NCBI RefSeq assembly: GCF_021026295.1
Contig: NZ_JAJNDA010000001.1
Span: 310,001 to 374,000, forward strand
Direction of reading: 5' to 3'
DNA from: Actinomycetospora soli
GTDB lineage: Bacteria; Actinomycetota; Actinomycetes; Mycobacteriales; Pseudonocardiaceae
Length of the DNA: 64,000 nucleotides
The translations under genes were made by a program, and so were the position numbers. The notes below the pieces were generated by a model. That model saw only the letters and a program-made list of their open reading frames with translations, was not told the DNA's origin and did no database searches. Below are positions 45,270 through 53,439 of the stretch, piece after piece. Positions within the stretch are counted from its first letter, which is position 1, and each line of letters opens with the position of its first letter.

Positions 45270-46249
45270 CCTCCCTGCGCACCGCTCCCCCGGTCGCCGG
45301 GGCCCGCATCATCGGTCTCGGCAGCTCCCAGCCCGACCGGGTCGTCACCAACGACGAGCTCGCGCAGCGCGTCGAGACCAACGACGCGTGGATCCGCAGC
45401 CGCGTCGGGATCGCCGAGCGCCGGTTCGCCGCCGACACCGACTCGGTGGTGTCCATGGGCGCCGACGCCGGGTCGAAGGCCCTGGCCGACGCCGGGATCG
45501 CGCCCACCGACCTCGACGCCGTCATCGTCGCGACCTGCACCATGCCCACCCCCATCCCGAACGCGGCGGCGCAGCTCTCCGACCGCGTCGGGGTCAACGG
45601 CATCGCGGCCTTCGACCTCAACGCGGCGTGCGCCGGCTTCTGCTACGGCGTGGGCGTCGGGGCCGACATGATCCGCGCCGGCAGCGCCCGCAACGTGCTC
45701 GTCGTCGGGTCGGAGAAGCTCACCGACTGGCTCGACATGGACGACCGCTCGGTCTGCATCATCTTCGCCGACGCCGCGGGCGCCGCGGTGCTGACGGCGG
45801 CGGAGACGCCCGAGGAGGTCGGGGTCGGCCCGGTCGTGCTCGGGGCGGCCGGCGACCTCGTCAAGACCATCGGCATCGACGAGCAGAACTACCTGCGCCA
45901 GGAGGGCCAGGCGGTCTTCCGCTGGGCCACCACCAAGATCGCGCCGGTGGCGCTGAAGGCGATCGAGCGGGCGGGGCTGACCCCGGCCGACATCGACGTC
46001 CTCGTGCCGCACCAGGCGAACCTGCGGATCGTCGAGGCGATCGCGAAGAAGCTGCGCTCCGAGGGGGCGCGGGACGACATGGTCGTCGCCGACGACATCG
46101 TGCACTCCGGCAACACCAGCTCCGCGTCGATCCCGATGGCGATCGACCACATGCGCGCCGCGGGGCGCGTGAAGTCGGGGGACGTGGCCCTGCTGGTCGG
46201 GTTCGGAGCCGGCCTGTCGTACGGCGGCCAGGTCGTCGTCCTCCCCTAG
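45266..46249 (+). CDS. fabH: 3-oxoacyl-ACP synthase III
   Basis: 327 residues from a GTG overlapping the fabD stop. The catalytic triad is Cys122 (NAACAGF), His249 (VPHQAN) and Asn283 (HSGNTSSAS). It condenses an acyl-CoA primer with malonyl-ACP to start chain synthesis; in actinobacteria branched primers are common. A TAGTCT hexamer just after its stop may serve a secondary promoter for acpP. Confidence 0.96.
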   Translation: MTSLRTAPPVAGARIIGLGSSQPDRVVTNDELAQRVETNDAWIRSRVGIAERRFAADTDSVVSMGADAGSKALADAGIAPTDLDAVIVATCTMPTPIPNAAAQLSDRVGVNGIAAFDLNAACAGFCYGVGVGADMIRAGSARNVLVVGSEKLTDWLDMDDRSVCIIFADAAGAAVLTAAETPEEVGVGPVVLGAAGDLVKTIGIDEQNYLRQEGQAVFRWATTKIAPVALKAIERAGLTPADIDVLVPHQANLRIVEAIAKKLRSEGARDDMVVADDIVHSGNTSSASIPMAIDHMRAAGRVKSGDVALLVGFGAGLSYGGQVVVLP

Positions 46250-46286
46250 TCTCCGGCTGCACCACACCCACGAGAAAGGAAACCGA

Positions 46287-46529
46287 GTGGCTTCCAAGGA
46301 AGAGATCCTCCCCGACCTCGCGAGCATCGTCGAGGAGGTGGCCGGCGTCGACGCCTCCGAGGTGACCCCGGAGAAGTCGTTCGTCGACGACCTCGACATC
46401 GACTCGCTCTCCATGGTCGAGATCGCCGTGCAGGCCGAGGACAAGTTCGGGGTCAAGATCCCGGACGACGAGCTGGCGAAGCTCACCACCGTGTCCGACG
46501 CCGTCGACTACATCTCCTCCCACTCGTGA
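46287..46529 (+). CDS. acpP: Acyl carrier protein
   Basis: 80 residues from a GTG, preceded by AGAAAGGAAACC. The phosphopantetheine attachment serine is Ser40 in DIDSLSMVEIA, in a four-helix acidic ACP. It carries the growing acyl chain between FabD, FabH and FabF. The stop overlaps the fabF GTG by four bases. Confidence 0.97.
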   Translation: MASKEEILPDLASIVEEVAGVDASEVTPEKSFVDDLDIDSLSMVEIAVQAEDKFGVKIPDDELAKLTTVSDAVDYISSHS

Positions 46530-47788
46530 GCGCCGCCGGCCAGGGGGTCGTCGTCACCGGGATGGGAGCGACGACCCCGCTCGGCGGAGACGTGCAGTCC
46601 ACCTGGGACGGTCTCCTGGCCGGTGCCAGCGGGACCCGGGAGCTCTCCGAGGACTACGCCCGCTTCGAGCTGCCGGTGAACTTCGCCTCGCAGCTCGCCG
46701 TCGAGCCGTCCGAGGTCCTCAAGCGCGTCGAGCTGCGTCGTCTCGACCGGTCCGAGCAGGTCGCCATCATCGCGGCCCGCCAGGCCTGGGAGCACGCCGA
46801 CCTCGGCGACTACCCCTCGACCGACGGCGGCTCGCCGAAGGTCGACGGGCTCCGGCTCGCCGTCATCATCGGCACCGGCATCGGTGGGGCGACGACCCTG
46901 CTGAACCAGGACGACCTGCTCGAGCAGCAGGGTCTGCGCAAGGTCGCGGTCCTGACGATCCCGATGCTCATGCCCAACGGACCCGCCGCGCACGTCGGGC
47001 TGGAGTTCGGCGCGGCCGCCGGTATCCACGCGCCCGTGTCGGCCTGCGCCTCCGGCGCCGAGGCGATCGCCTGGGCGTGGCGGATGCTGCAGGCGGACGA
47101 GGTCGACGTCGTCGTCGCCGGCGGCGCCGAGGCGTGCATCGCGCCGATCACGCTCGCCGGCTTCTGCCAGGCCCGCACCATGGCGCACGACTGGGACGAC
47201 CCCACGCAGGCCTCCCGCCCGTTCGACGCGAAGCGCAACGGCTTCGTGCTCGGCGAGGGCGCCGGCATGGTCGTGCTGGAGCGCGCCGAGTTCGCGCAGG
47301 CCCGCGGCGCCACGATCCACGGCCGTCTCGCCGGCATCGGCACCAGCGCGGACGCGTACCACATCACGGCCCCCGACCCCGAGGGCACGGGCCAGTCCCG
47401 CGCCATCGCGGCGGCCCTGCGGACGGCGGGCCTCGACCCGGCCGACGTCGGGCACGTGAACTGCCACGCGACGTCGACCCCGGTCGGCGACGTGGCGGAG
47501 ACGGTCGCGGTGCGCAAGGCGATCGGTGACCACCCGGTGCTCACCGCGCCCAAGGGCTCGCTCGGTCACCTGCTCGGCGCCGCCGGTGCCGTGGAGGCGA
47601 TCGCGACGATCCTCGCCGTCAAGGAGGGCCAGATCCCGCCGACCGCGAACCTCACCGACCTCGACGGCGACGTCGAGCTCGACGTGGTCTCCGGCGAGGC
47701 GCGGAAGGTGTCCCTCGACGCCGCGATCAACGACTCGTTCGGCTTCGGCGGGCACAACGTCAGTTTGTGCTTCGCTCGTGAGCACTAA
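46526..47788 (+). CDS. fabF: 3-oxoacyl-ACP synthase II
   Basis: 420 residues. The Cys-His-His active site is Cys174 (VSACASGAEA), His314 (NCHATSTPVGD) and His348 (APKGSLGHLLGAAG, with Lys343). It elongates acyl-ACP. The normal family ending is GFGGHNVxLxF; here, after GHNVS, the last residues LCFAREH and the stop are encoded by the left flank and arm of a palindromic element (47766-47817). The extreme C-terminus has therefore been rewritten by the repeat without touching the active site. Confidence 0.95.
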   Translation: MSAAGQGVVVTGMGATTPLGGDVQSTWDGLLAGASGTRELSEDYARFELPVNFASQLAVEPSEVLKRVELRRLDRSEQVAIIAARQAWEHADLGDYPSTDGGSPKVDGLRLAVIIGTGIGGATTLLNQDDLLEQQGLRKVAVLTIPMLMPNGPAAHVGLEFGAAAGIHAPVSACASGAEAIAWAWRMLQADEVDVVVAGGAEACIAPITLAGFCQARTMAHDWDDPTQASRPFDAKRNGFVLGEGAGMVVLERAEFAQARGATIHGRLAGIGTSADAYHITAPDPEGTGQSRAIAAALRTAGLDPADVGHVNCHATSTPVGDVAETVAVRKAIGDHPVLTAPKGSLGHLLGAAGAVEAIATILAVKEGQIPPTANLTDLDGDVELDVVSGEARKVSLDAAINDSFGFGGHNVSLCFAREH

Positions 47789-50157: not shown

Positions 50158-51468
50158 ATGACGGGGGGCGACGAACGGAGCGGGGACCGTCCGGCGACCT
50201 TCCGCGACGCGCTCGCGGTCCCGGCCTTCCGGCGGCTCTGGCTCGGGCAGCTGCTGTCGATCCTCGGCGACCAGGTCGCCCGCGTCGCGCTGTCCGTCCT
50301 CGTCTACCAGCGCACCGCGTCCGCCGCGCTGACGGCGCTGACCTACGCGCTGACGTTCCTGCCCGACCTCGTCGCCGGCCCCCTGCTCTCCGGCCTCGCC
50401 GACCGGTACCCGCGGCGTCGGGTCATGGTCGTCACCGACGTGGCGCGGGCGGTGCTGGTGGCCGCCATGGCGATCCCCGGCACCCCGTTGCCGGCCCTGG
50501 TCGTCCTCCTCGTGGCGGGCCAGCTGCTCGCCGCCCCGTTCCTCGCGGCGCGCTCGGCGATCCTCCCCCACCTGCTGAGCGGCGACCGGTACGTCGCCGG
50601 CAACGCCGTCATCAGCACGACCTACCAGCTCGCCCAGGTCCTCGGCTTCGCCCTCGGCGGCCCGCTCGTCGCCCTCCTCGGGGTCTCCCCCGCGCTCGCC
50701 GTGAACGCGGCGACCTTCCTCGTCTCCGCGCTCGTCCTGCGCTTCGGGGTGCCCGAGCAGCAGGCCGCGACTCCCGACGACGCAGCCGAGCACGCCGACC
50801 GGGGGTCGGCGCGGGGCGGGCTGCGCGGCGAGGCCGCGCGGGTCGTCGCCGGGGCGCGGATCGTCGGCTCGGACCCACGCCTGCGGTCCCTGATCGGGCT
50901 GGCGTGCATCTCCGCGTTCGTCGTCACCGTGGAGGGCCTCGCCGCGCCCTACGCCGCGGAGCTCGGGGCGGGCACCGTCGCCGTCGGCCTGCTGCTCGCG
51001 GCCAACCCGCTGGGTCAGGTCCTCGGCATCCTGCTGCTGACCCGGCTCGTCGCGCCCCACCGACGGCCACGGCTCATCGGGCCGCTCGCGGTCGCGTCGT
51101 GCGTCCCGCTCGTGGTGTCGGCCCTCGGTCCCCCGCTCTGGGTGCTGCTGCTCGCGTGGGTGGTCTCGGGGATGGCCTGCGCCTACCAGGTCCCGGCCAA
51201 CGCGACCTTCGTGGTGAGCGTCGACGACGCCCGGCGGGGTCAGGCGTTCGGACTGGCGGTCACGGCCCTGCGGGTCACCCAGGGGGTCGGCGTGCTGCTC
51301 GCGGGGCTGCTCGCGCAGCGCACGGCCCCCTCGACGGCGGTGGCGATCGGAGGGGTCGTCGGGATCGTCGTCGCCCTGCTCGCCGCGCGCGCGTGGGCGC
51401 GGGCGTCCGCGGAGCCCCCGGCAACCGTGGCCGAACCCGAGGAGGACGTCGCGGACGAGGCGGCATGA
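50158..51468 (+). CDS. MFS exporter (EntS/DHA3-like)
   Basis: 436 residues with about 12 spans. The FRRLWLGQLLSILGDQVARVALSVLVYQRT start, LADRYPRRRVMVVTDVARA loop and FVVSVDDARRGQAFGLAVTALRVTQG are typical of the MFS_3 branch that exports siderophores and drugs. A TAGCGT hexamer nine bases before the ATG and no Shine-Dalgarno suggest a leaderless mRNA. The acidic tail (residues 420-436) is unremarkable. Confidence 0.88.
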   Translation: MTGGDERSGDRPATFRDALAVPAFRRLWLGQLLSILGDQVARVALSVLVYQRTASAALTALTYALTFLPDLVAGPLLSGLADRYPRRRVMVVTDVARAVLVAAMAIPGTPLPALVVLLVAGQLLAAPFLAARSAILPHLLSGDRYVAGNAVISTTYQLAQVLGFALGGPLVALLGVSPALAVNAATFLVSALVLRFGVPEQQAATPDDAAEHADRGSARGGLRGEAARVVAGARIVGSDPRLRSLIGLACISAFVVTVEGLAAPYAAELGAGTVAVGLLLAANPLGQVLGILLLTRLVAPHRRPRLIGPLAVASCVPLVVSALGPPLWVLLLAWVVSGMACAYQVPANATFVVSVDDARRGQAFGLAVTALRVTQGVGVLLAGLLAQRTAPSTAVAIGGVVGIVVALLAARAWARASAEPPATVAEPEEDVADEAA

Positions 51469-51532
51469 GCAGCCGGCCTCCGACGCACGAGAGCCGACCG
51501 GTCGCCCGTGGGGGCTCCCGGCCGGCGGCTCG

Positions 51533-51593
51533 GTGGTGTGCGACGTCGTGCGCGAGGTGCTGCGCGACCCTCTGCGCGACGTGGTGCGACCTG
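51533..51593. repeat. Tandem array of 12-base units next to the DSNW gene
   Basis: About four imperfect 12-base units built on GTGCGCGAC/GTGCTGCGCGAC lie between the exporter stop and the DSNW microprotein stop. Read on the plus strand they give VVRE-VLRD-PLRD-VVR. I see no convincing gene for them. Confidence 0.5.
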
Positions 51594-51596
51594 CGG

Positions 51597-51743
51597 TCAG
51601 CGCCAGTGGGCGTCGCGGCTCCAGTTCGAGTCGGCGAAGCTCCAGTTCGAGTCCCGGCTCCAGTTCGAGTCCGCGAAGCTCCAGTTGGAGTCCCGGCTCC
51701 AGTTCGAGTCGCGGGTCCAGTTCGAGTCGGACGAGATGCGCAT
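51597..51743 (-). CDS. DSNW-repeat microprotein (48 residues)
   Basis: Start ATG at 51743 with GGAGG seven bases upstream; stop TGA at 51597. After MRISS the protein is six perfect DSNW tetrapeptides and a final DAHW, spaced by TR, SR or SFA. A 13-residue unit (DSNWSRDSNWSFA) occurs twice (residues 12-24 and 25-37) plus a partial third. Seven Trp in 48 residues, no membrane segment. All codons end in G or C, and two of the differences between the 13-residue units (TCC/TCG, GCG/GCC) are synonymous; the first would change Phe to Leu in the overlapping plus-strand LQFES frame. No family name comes to mind. The neighbours are an exporter and a diguanylate cyclase. Confidence 0.65.
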   Translation of the reverse strand: MRISSDSNWTRDSNWSRDSNWSFADSNWSRDSNWSFADSNWSRDAHWR

Positions 51744-52113
51744 CCGTATGCCTCCGGCAGTCGCAGTGCGTTGTCGTGTGCCCCATCACAGGACGGGTCG
51801 GGACGACTCCATCGCGTGACGCTGTCACCTTGCGTGACAGATCCTGGATCCCTCGGCCGAGCGGGCCGCGGGCGGGGCGTGCGGTCGGACGCTCTCAGCC
51901 TGAGCGTTGTGGCTATGGGTCACCAGACGGCGACTGGGCGTCAACCATCCAGGTGAGATGACACCAAAGGGTGATCCACTGACCCTCGCCGCGGTGTCGC
52001 GCGGTACCGTTCACGGGGTCGGAGGGGGGCTCCGGGACACCGGTGGGACCGCGCGCCCCCGCCCTCCCGGACCCGCCGGAACACGATGCGCAGATCGTCG
52101 GAGGCTGCAGAAC
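51744..52113. other. Region between DSNW microprotein and diguanylate cyclase
   Basis: 370 bases serving as the upstream region of two divergent genes. It holds the GTGAC/GTCAC repeat cluster at 51816-51840 and relatively AT-rich sequence near 51905-51975. No further gene is supported; long plus-strand frames here lack a ribosome site and read low-complexity sequence. Confidence 0.45.
51816..51840. promoter_or_regulatory. GTGAC/GTCAC inverted-repeat cluster, candidate operator
   Basis: CTGTCAC-cttgc-GTGACAG is a perfect 7-bp inverted repeat (51822-51840), and an overlapping GTGAC-gct-GTCAC starts at 51816. It is 73 bases upstream of the DSNW start and about 274 before the cyclase start. Confidence 0.5.
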
Positions 52114-53439
52114 GTGACCACGCCGCGTGCCCGGCCGGACGGTGCGGGCACTCCGCAGCGTCACCGTGGGGCCCCCGGACGTCGTCCCGATCGCTGGGCG
52201 CTCTGGTCCCTGCCGCGGGCCGCGCTGGTGTACGTCCTGCTCATCGACCTCGCGGCCGTGGGCGCCGTGGTGGCCACGGTGAACCTCACCCCGCCGGCAC
52301 CGCAGGCGTGGCTGATCTGTGCCCTGCTGTTCCTCGGCTCGGCCCTGCACGCGGAGGCCGCCCGCCACATCGAGCGGGTCCGCATCAGCCCCGGCGACAA
52401 GCCCTTCATCGACCTCAAGTCGATGTGGACCTTCGCGGGCCTGCTGCTCACCCAGATCGGCCCCTCGCTGGTGCTCGTCACCGCGGTCTTCGCCTACTGG
52501 TGGGCCCGCAACGAACGGCGCCCGCCGCCGCACCGCTGGATCTTCTCCTGGGCCACCGTCGTCCTCGGGACCACCGCCGCGGGGCTGCTCCTCGACGGCG
52601 TGCAGCGCGACACGCTCCTGCGCGTGGCCGCCGGGCCCGCGGGGCTCGCCCTGATCGCCGTGGCCGCCCTGGTCCGCTGGACGGTCAACCACGGCCTCGT
52701 CGTCGGGATCATCCGCCTCGTGTCACCGCGCACCTCGCTGCGCCGGCACTTCGCCAGCCCCGCCGACACCCTCCTCGGGCTCGGCGCGCTCGCCCTCGGG
52801 GCCGCGCTCGCCGTCCTCGCGGCGGCGTCGCCCTGGCTCGTCCCGATCCTGCTCGTCCCGGTGATCATGCTGCACCGCGGCGTGCTGGTCGACCAGTTCC
52901 GGCACGCGGCCCGCACCGACCCGAAGACCGGCCTCGCCAACGGCGCCGCGTGGGCCGAGGTCGCCGCGAAGGAGATCGCCCGCACCCGGCGGCACGACGG
53001 CGGCCTCGCGGTGCTCATGGTCGACCTCGACGAGTTCAAGGCCGTGAACGACCGCCACGGCCACCTGGTCGGCGACGAGGTGCTCCGGGCCGTCGCGGCG
53101 GCGCTGTCGGCGGAGGTCCGCGCCTACGACGCGGTCGGCCGCTTCGGCGGCGAGGAGTTCGTGGTGCTCCTGTCCGGGGTCGACGCCGAGGCGGCGACGC
53201 TGACCGCGGAGCGCCTGCGCGGCCGCATCGCCGCCATCGACCTCACCGTGCCGACCGCGACCGGGACGCACGCCCGGGTCCGTGGCCTGACCGCCTCGAT
53301 CGGCTGCGCCCCCTGCCCCGACGGCGGCCGCTCGGTCGACGACCTGCTCGCCGCCGCCGACGGGGCGCTCTACCGCGCGAAGCACGCGGGCCGGAACCGG
53401 ACGGTCACCGCCGACCCGGCCCGGCCCGACGTCGGGTGA
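52114..53439 (+). CDS. Diguanylate cyclase (membrane GGDEF protein)
   Basis: 441 residues from a GTG at 52114 (GGAGG nine bases upstream). Residues ~36-255 contain about seven hydrophobic spans without a recognised sensor domain. The GGDEF domain starts at ~268 (TDPKTGLANG), with DLDEFKAVND at 304-313 and active site GGEEF at 345-349. An RAYD (RxxD) inhibitory site lies five residues upstream at 336-339. Both catalytic and product-inhibition elements are intact, so it should make c-di-GMP from GTP under feedback control. It converges on the acyl-CoA dehydrogenase gene with one base between. Confidence 0.93.
   Translation: MTTPRARPDGAGTPQRHRGAPGRRPDRWALWSLPRAALVYVLLIDLAAVGAVVATVNLTPPAPQAWLICALLFLGSALHAEAARHIERVRISPGDKPFIDLKSMWTFAGLLLTQIGPSLVLVTAVFAYWWARNERRPPPHRWIFSWATVVLGTTAAGLLLDGVQRDTLLRVAAGPAGLALIAVAALVRWTVNHGLVVGIIRLVSPRTSLRRHFASPADTLLGLGALALGAALAVLAAASPWLVPILLVPVIMLHRGVLVDQFRHAARTDPKTGLANGAAWAEVAAKEIARTRRHDGGLAVLMVDLDEFKAVNDRHGHLVGDEVLRAVAAALSAEVRAYDAVGRFGGEEFVVLLSGVDAEAATLTAERLRGRIAAIDLTVPTATGTHARVRGLTASIGCAPCPDGGRSVDDLLAAADGALYRAKHAGRNRTVTADPARPDVG

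Follow-up and report, generated by a model that had tools for sequence, protein, structure and literature searches.

Is the short open reading frame (ORF) of DSNW repeats at 51597..51743 on the minus strand a gene, and if so, what might its product do? We addressed this question in the window, the 64,000-nucleotide stretch of the Actinomycetospora soli genome that was analysed as a whole. The ORF translates to MRISSDSNWTRDSNWSRDSNWSFADSNWSRDSNWSFADSNWSRDAHWR, followed by a stop codon. Its 48 residues comprise six DSNW tetrapeptides and one DAHW, separated by TR, SR or SFA spacers and organised in a higher-order unit of 13 residues. A Shine-Dalgarno (SD) sequence, GGAGG at 51751..51755 on the minus strand, is separated from the ATG by 7 nt, and all codons have G or C at the third position. 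The 13-residue units differ synonymously in this frame, including a TCC/TCG difference that is Ser/Ser here and would give Leu/Phe in the opposite-strand frame. We could reproduce this description, which a sequence-only reading had given before, from the letters. Its statement that the pattern belongs to no named family also held, as searches of Pfam and NCBIfam with the microprotein matched no family. An Rfam scan of 12 loci yielded chance-level matches only.

Conservation and surroundings of the ORF in Actinomycetospora

The ORF is present between the MFS gene and the divergent GGDEF gene in 17/17 readable Actinomycetospora genomes, the window's own included. Left out was one Actinomycetospora genome that was 59% complete and could not be scored, and an assembly break interrupts the array in three assemblies. 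Named GTDB contigs that carry the locus include A. lemnae, A. succinea and A. termitidis. The orthologues start with ATG or GTG, and their repeats begin at residue 2–6. Wherever the assembly extends far enough, a ribosome site rich in A/G precedes the start. Unit variants within the genus include DSNWSR, DSNWH(R/FA), DSHWNR and DSNWVR, and the number of units varies widely among close species.

The distances between repeats within the Actinomycetospora ORFs (18, 21, 36, 45, 60 and 72 nt) are all multiples of three. Serine codons in the repeats are TCG (n = 54) or TCC (n = 29), which the other strand would read as Phe/Leu. The sequence-only reading had named loss of the frame or ribosome site in relatives, or length changes other than by triplets, as signs of a DNA repeat; in the relatives, the frame and ribosome site are conserved and lengths change by triplets. 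The DSNW frame is thus real and coding, as had been proposed. A non-coding DNA repeat with a frame arising by chance is scarcely credible: the DNA is repetitive and the ORF falls below annotation length limits, but the conserved frame, SD, start, motif and codon pattern, together with practically empty controls (see below), already contradict this explanation. A protein search with the ORF in other genera returned chance matches only, in long or unrelated frames. The genome-wide DNA search for the DSNW pattern that had been suggested did recover the short-ORF form, limited to Actinomycetospora; the remaining matches were unrelated frames.

The sequence-only reading had rightly drawn attention to a flanking cyclase and exporter. 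The former is a membrane diguanylate cyclase, encoded divergently at 52114..53439 on the plus strand (441 aa from the GTG at 52114). It consists of an N-terminal domain of about 6–7 transmembrane segments and a GGDEF domain (Pfam E-value of 1e-39; NCBIfam TIGR00254 E-value of 4e-46), for which VIA-align gave a Z of ~25 to GGDEF structures. By sequence, the active site is of the intact type (GGEEF), with an RxxD I-site. No Pfam or NCBIfam model covers the N-terminal membrane domain. The presumed exporter is an MFS transporter at 50158..51468 on the plus strand, convergent with the DSNW ORF and matching Pfam MFS_1 and MFS_3 (MFS_1 score of 120.6 bits against a gathering cut-off of 33.4). It has weak, below-cut-off NCBIfam matches to EntS and ryptide_ex_MFS, and we regard it as a candidate exporter that is not universal in the family described below.

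Between the DSNW ORF and the MFS stop lies an inverted repeat, GAGCCGaCCGgtCG..CGgcCGGcGGCTC (51491..51531), which is probably a shared transcript end. Strong hairpins are predicted at the same position, 3' of the ORF, in other Actinomycetospora genomes. The intrinsic-terminator scan missed the inverted repeat because it has no T-run, and scans of the locus for sigma-70 promoters and T-run terminators found nothing, which is unsurprising for high-GC actinomycetes. A second tandem repeat, at 51532-51588 between the stops of the ORF and the MFS gene, has a period of 12/24 (GTGGTGTGCGACGTCGTGCGCGAGGTGCTGCGCGACCC...) and reads VCDVVREVLRDPLRDVVRP on the plus strand; it is not obvious in other Actinomycetospora genomes. 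Alignment of 16 divergent intergenic regions from Actinomycetospora revealed a highly conserved block of ~65 bp, ATCACCC..TCACC..GGTTGACGCC..GTCG..CTGGTSAC, at 51911..51977. The block has GGTGA/TCACC-type half-sites and is probably a regulatory or promoter region that serves the ORF, the GGDEF gene or both; a shared regulator may have its operator here. Also near the locus, at 45272-47788, are genes for fatty-acid synthesis in the order KASIII-ACP-KASII (KAS, ketoacyl synthase), which show conserved synteny within the genus and are apparently unrelated to the peptide.

Fused repeats and rows of mini-ORFs in other genera

We located relatives in other genera by reading the divergent strand upstream of GGDEF homologues; homology search had missed them, and they were found via synteny. 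Some are fused repeats of up to ten units, with motifs such as STDWTF, PTDWAVR, RPNDWQ, RPADWR, RPTEWR, RGSEWH, GNEWF, SVNQGW and ESNNWR. Others are rows of mini-ORFs of 6–8 codons, each with its own SD and encoding polar peptides with Trp: MRDNTWT, MRDTTWS, MRDNNWN, MNSNSW, MTVVNWS, MNNHGW and MSNHGW. Further mini-ORF peptides with an SD each are MRNRAW, MRTREH, MRGWHWTR, MREKIW, MRHTSWS and MRSVQWA. A row can hold up to eight copies of MRDNTWT, 12 of MRDTTWS or eight of MRNRAW, with a maximum of 13 mini-ORFs. One locus (L126) has a single copy that reads exactly MRDSNW before its stop codon, the repeat unit of the window's ORF. Three others (L127, L169 and L170) are intermediates with several short ORFs, most of which contain two fused units (MRDNNWTTRRDNNWT and MRDNNWRDNNWR, each followed by a stop codon), and therefore connect the tandem and fused organisations.

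Counted by search handles and with Actinomycetospora included, arrays or repeats occur in about 21 genera from six families. A phylum-level profile search outside the class Actinomycetes gave no strong match at an E-value of 1e-85. The DSNW ORF is the Actinomycetospora form of this class-wide peptide family. The earlier account of a microprotein gene was therefore right about the gene, and its peptide-precursor option was a good one among those it offered, to which the short-unit mini-ORFs also point; that the ORF is one form of a wider family had escaped it. Roughly 40% of the GGDEF homologues outside Actinomycetospora have no recognisable Trp peptide. At one locus (L129), MFS and GGDEF genes lie beside a row of three MRTREH mini-ORFs, all with strong SDs. 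This variant has no Trp, so a Trp filter does not show the whole family.

Two further observations concern the organisation of these loci. On the Pseudonocardia plasmid NZ_CP080522.1, four copies of MRNHNW occupy an unannotated gap beside the GGDEF protein WP_255622856.1. There (L327, 62814-72115), a prolyl oligopeptidase-family peptidase adjoins the array instead of an MFS protein, and this could possibly be a peptide-processing enzyme. In several genomes, related membrane GGDEF genes are paired on opposite strands (the L145/L147 area; G258:C1:28463-31109 and G256:C1:6583901-6586506).

An objective classifier was run on 109 distinct GGDEF-upstream regions; it scored a fused repeat when a single ORF behind an SD contained at least two xxW triplets. 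Fused repeats were present on the divergent strand of 42/109 regions (14 from Actinomycetospora and 28 from other genera), compared to 0/109 on the other strand and 0.15 per 109 in dinucleotide shuffles. Tandem mini-ORF sets numbered 17 on the divergent strand, with none on the other strand and none in the shuffles. Among 82 copies from 13 arrays, codons differ by 4%, at third positions only, compared to 49% for the 25 nt that follow each ORF. The lack of replacements is partly built in because the copies were picked by peptide, although the units lie at one period, with no gap to hold a degenerate copy. Spacing between mini-ORFs is free with respect to reading frame (46:34:31 modulo 3) and that inside ORFs is always a multiple of three, which indicates that each mini-ORF is initiated alone and agrees with the prediction from in-frame fusion.

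Pairing of the peptides with a membrane diguanylate cyclase

Because the family had been found through GGDEF genes, we ran reverse searches from the peptide DNA. A PTDW-type pattern of two nearby motifs matched 47 of the 386 genomes scanned from one family, and 30 loci were read. True arrays were found at 26/30 loci; all 26 abut a membrane GGDEF gene and 25 abut an MFS gene, the remaining one running up to the end of its contig. Neither gene lies beside any of the four non-arrays. In another family, a 24-mer pattern for MRD(N/T)TW(T/S) plus stop gave 55 matches in 10/22 genomes, at one locus per genome, and 10/10 of these loci lie between MFS and GGDEF genes. Pooled, 36/36 arrays from the reverse searches adjoin the cyclase.

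Across 24 neighbourhoods (~9–20 kb), no gene family besides GGDEF and MFS recurs widely, and no tailoring enzyme is shared. The survey also identified no signal peptide and no recurrent protease. The peptide's neighbour is a membrane GGDEF protein, with no RRNPPA/RopB-type receptor among the recurring genes. Outside Actinomycetospora, MFS genes directly abut 26/45 repeat-peptide loci and 20/39 peptide-negative loci. These shares are similar with or without a peptide and thus speak for an exporter role only weakly.

We compared peptide similarity with the identity of the cyclase's membrane domain after removing the contributions of the GGDEF domain and the MFS protein. The partial correlation was 0.45 over all loci and 0.60 for those from other genera (permutation p = 0.001). 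Outside the genus, neither the MFS protein nor the GGDEF domain retained a positive residual, and the MFS value over all loci was 0.06. When the five motif classes are mapped onto a tree built from 52 membrane domains, they require 5 changes, close to the minimum of 4 (shuffled mean, 24). Some genomes contain two systems, with the two cyclases in different clades: G111 (RPNDW and RDKIW), G258 (RPTEW and RDNNW) and G036 (SNNW and RDKIW). In G111 and G258, each cyclase clusters with those that have like peptides in other genera, and the SNNW cyclase of G036 clusters with the GNEW clade. Several orthogonal peptide-receptor pairs may coexist in one genome. By the Mantel and tree tests, peptide type follows the N-terminal membrane domain of the cyclase, which may also be merely a better clock.

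What might this domain bind? Foldseek with a model of the full cyclase matched the GGDEF domain only, so the N-terminal domain was folded separately (pLDDT of 74). With VIA-align, the top 14 rows for this model were ECF S-components, among them TmRibU (Z of 11.6, rmsd of 3.3 over 155), NikM (Z of 11.0) and BioY (Z of 9.9); chance matches between helical bundles can attain Z values of this size. Foldseek with the membrane-domain model found nothing significant (E-value of 0.65), so the predicted likeness to S-components is suggestive only. ECF S-components are small-ligand-binding proteins.

A candidate peptide signal, its alternatives and known systems

We give roughly an even chance to the proposal that the DSNW ORF encodes a precursor holding many copies of a short Trp peptide and that this peptide is the dedicated ligand of the divergent membrane diguanylate cyclase. 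The unit, RDSNW-x, would be produced in many copies, either fused in one ORF or from rows of independent 6–8-codon ORFs. Trp units would be released from the fused precursor and exported, in the window perhaps by the MFS neighbour, and would reach the N-terminal membrane domain of the cyclase, probably from the outside. Binding would then change c-di-GMP synthesis, either upwards or downwards. Our confidence is likewise evenly balanced for the broader proposal of an undescribed class of peptide signalling in Actinomycetes, in which leaderless Trp peptides would be the ligands dedicated to a membrane diguanylate cyclase whose sensor is S-component-like.

The same pairing and co-variation would also fit a small intracellular regulator that is never exported, docks onto the GGDEF protein at its cytosolic or membrane face and tunes its activity, comparable to small proteins that act on sensor kinases. 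The absence of a secretion signal and the non-universal MFS gene are consistent with such a regulator. Many identical short units, in up to 13 mini-ORFs, and a sensor that resembles ligand-capturing S-components fit a diffusible ligand better, however, and we consider an intracellular regulator rather unlikely. Alternatively, the product could be RiPP-like: enzymes encoded elsewhere would modify the Trp units as cores, and the cyclase would sense the bioactive compound that is exported as a result. Repeated Trp-rich cores and a common MFS neighbour would suit this explanation, and tailored ultra-short precursors do exist, as in the biarylitides (PMC8708641). That no tailoring enzyme is shared across the 24 neighbourhoods argues against a conventional RiPP. 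In addition, there is no leader peptide, given that repeats begin at residue 2–6 and mini-ORFs are leaderless, and one enzyme would not suffice for units as unlike as GNEWF and RDNNW. A RiPP-like product therefore seems to us distinctly improbable.

In the window, the repeats recur regularly every 6/7 residues, and other genera have as many as ten of them; this might instead suggest that the 48-residue chain is itself functional and clusters cyclases via its Trp motifs. The sequence-only reading had listed a repeat fold or binding scaffold among its options. Related monomeric peptides of 6–7 residues cannot be multivalent, though, and the existence of relatives made as single 6–8-codon ORFs argues for short peptide units; unit number also varies widely between closely related species. 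Such a scaffold is very unlikely. We give hardly more than a marginal chance to a cis-acting element, in which translation of the Trp codons, or the ribosome sites acting as decoys, would regulate the transcript by attenuation or similar means. Strong SDs and the almost invariable presence of at least one Trp per unit could be read this way. Yet fused forms have only a single SD, and the non-Trp positions co-vary with the sensor domain of the GGDEF protein. In the window, the same strand is empty downstream of the ORF, the next gene being convergent with the inverted repeat in between; the attenuator or leader reading of the DSNW ORF was rejected because there is no downstream gene to act on.

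If the peptide-ligand proposal is true, it would represent a new form of peptide communication that feeds directly into c-di-GMP, in bacteria that make many antibiotics. In streptomycetes, c-di-GMP controls development and natural-product formation. To our knowledge, activators of membrane diguanylate cyclases are mostly unknown; here, candidate ligands would be encoded next door to the cyclase in many species and are readily synthesised. Arrays of 6–8-codon genes that are invisible to annotation, as on NZ_CP080522.1, can form a conserved gene family. Searches of the open-access literature by keywords, motifs and peptide strings returned no description resembling this system; subscription journals lay outside their scope, so priority is unproven.

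Parts of the system resemble known ones. MASE-type diguanylate cyclases share the layout of a membrane N-terminal sensor domain followed by GGDEF, whereas the N-terminal domain here has no Pfam or NCBIfam model, an S-component-like predicted fold and a proposed peptide ligand. The precursors of yeast alpha-factor and of FMRFamide also contain many fused copies of one short peptide with variable spacers. In contrast, the DSNW family is bacterial, has neither a signal peptide nor recognised protease sites and includes a precursor-less mini-ORF version. The microcin C precursor MccA is encoded by a heptapeptide gene whose product starts with MR and is exported, and requires an adenylating enzyme. 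Many of the mini-ORFs share the MR start and the short length, but MccA acts as an antibiotic and is not tandem.

Biarylitides derive from an 18-bp precursor gene encoding five residues and require a P450 cross-linking enzyme (PMC8708641, PMC13417212). They too are ultra-short peptide genes overlooked by annotation, with actinobacteria among their hosts; the units described here differ in being 6–8 residues long, containing Trp, forming arrays of up to 13 and lacking a recurrent P450 or other tailoring gene in 24 neighbourhoods.

Leaderless communication peptides (LCPs), such as SIP with its receptor RopB in Firmicutes, are encoded by ultra-small ORFs without secretion or processing signals, and their peptide codes co-vary with the receptor gene; most are hydrophobic peptides of 8–10 aa, and their receptor is an intracellular transcription factor of the RRNPPA type (PMC10518010). 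The mini-ORF relatives likewise encode leaderless short peptides in ultra-small ORFs, with a diversity that tracks the putative receptor gene, while the window's member is a fused 48-codon array. The units here are polar Trp peptides of 6–8 aa from Actinomycetes, occurring as arrays or fused repeats beside a membrane diguanylate cyclase. By this comparison, LCPs are the nearest known concept, from which the present family differs in its kind of receptor, in the chemistry of its peptides and in its arrangement as arrays.
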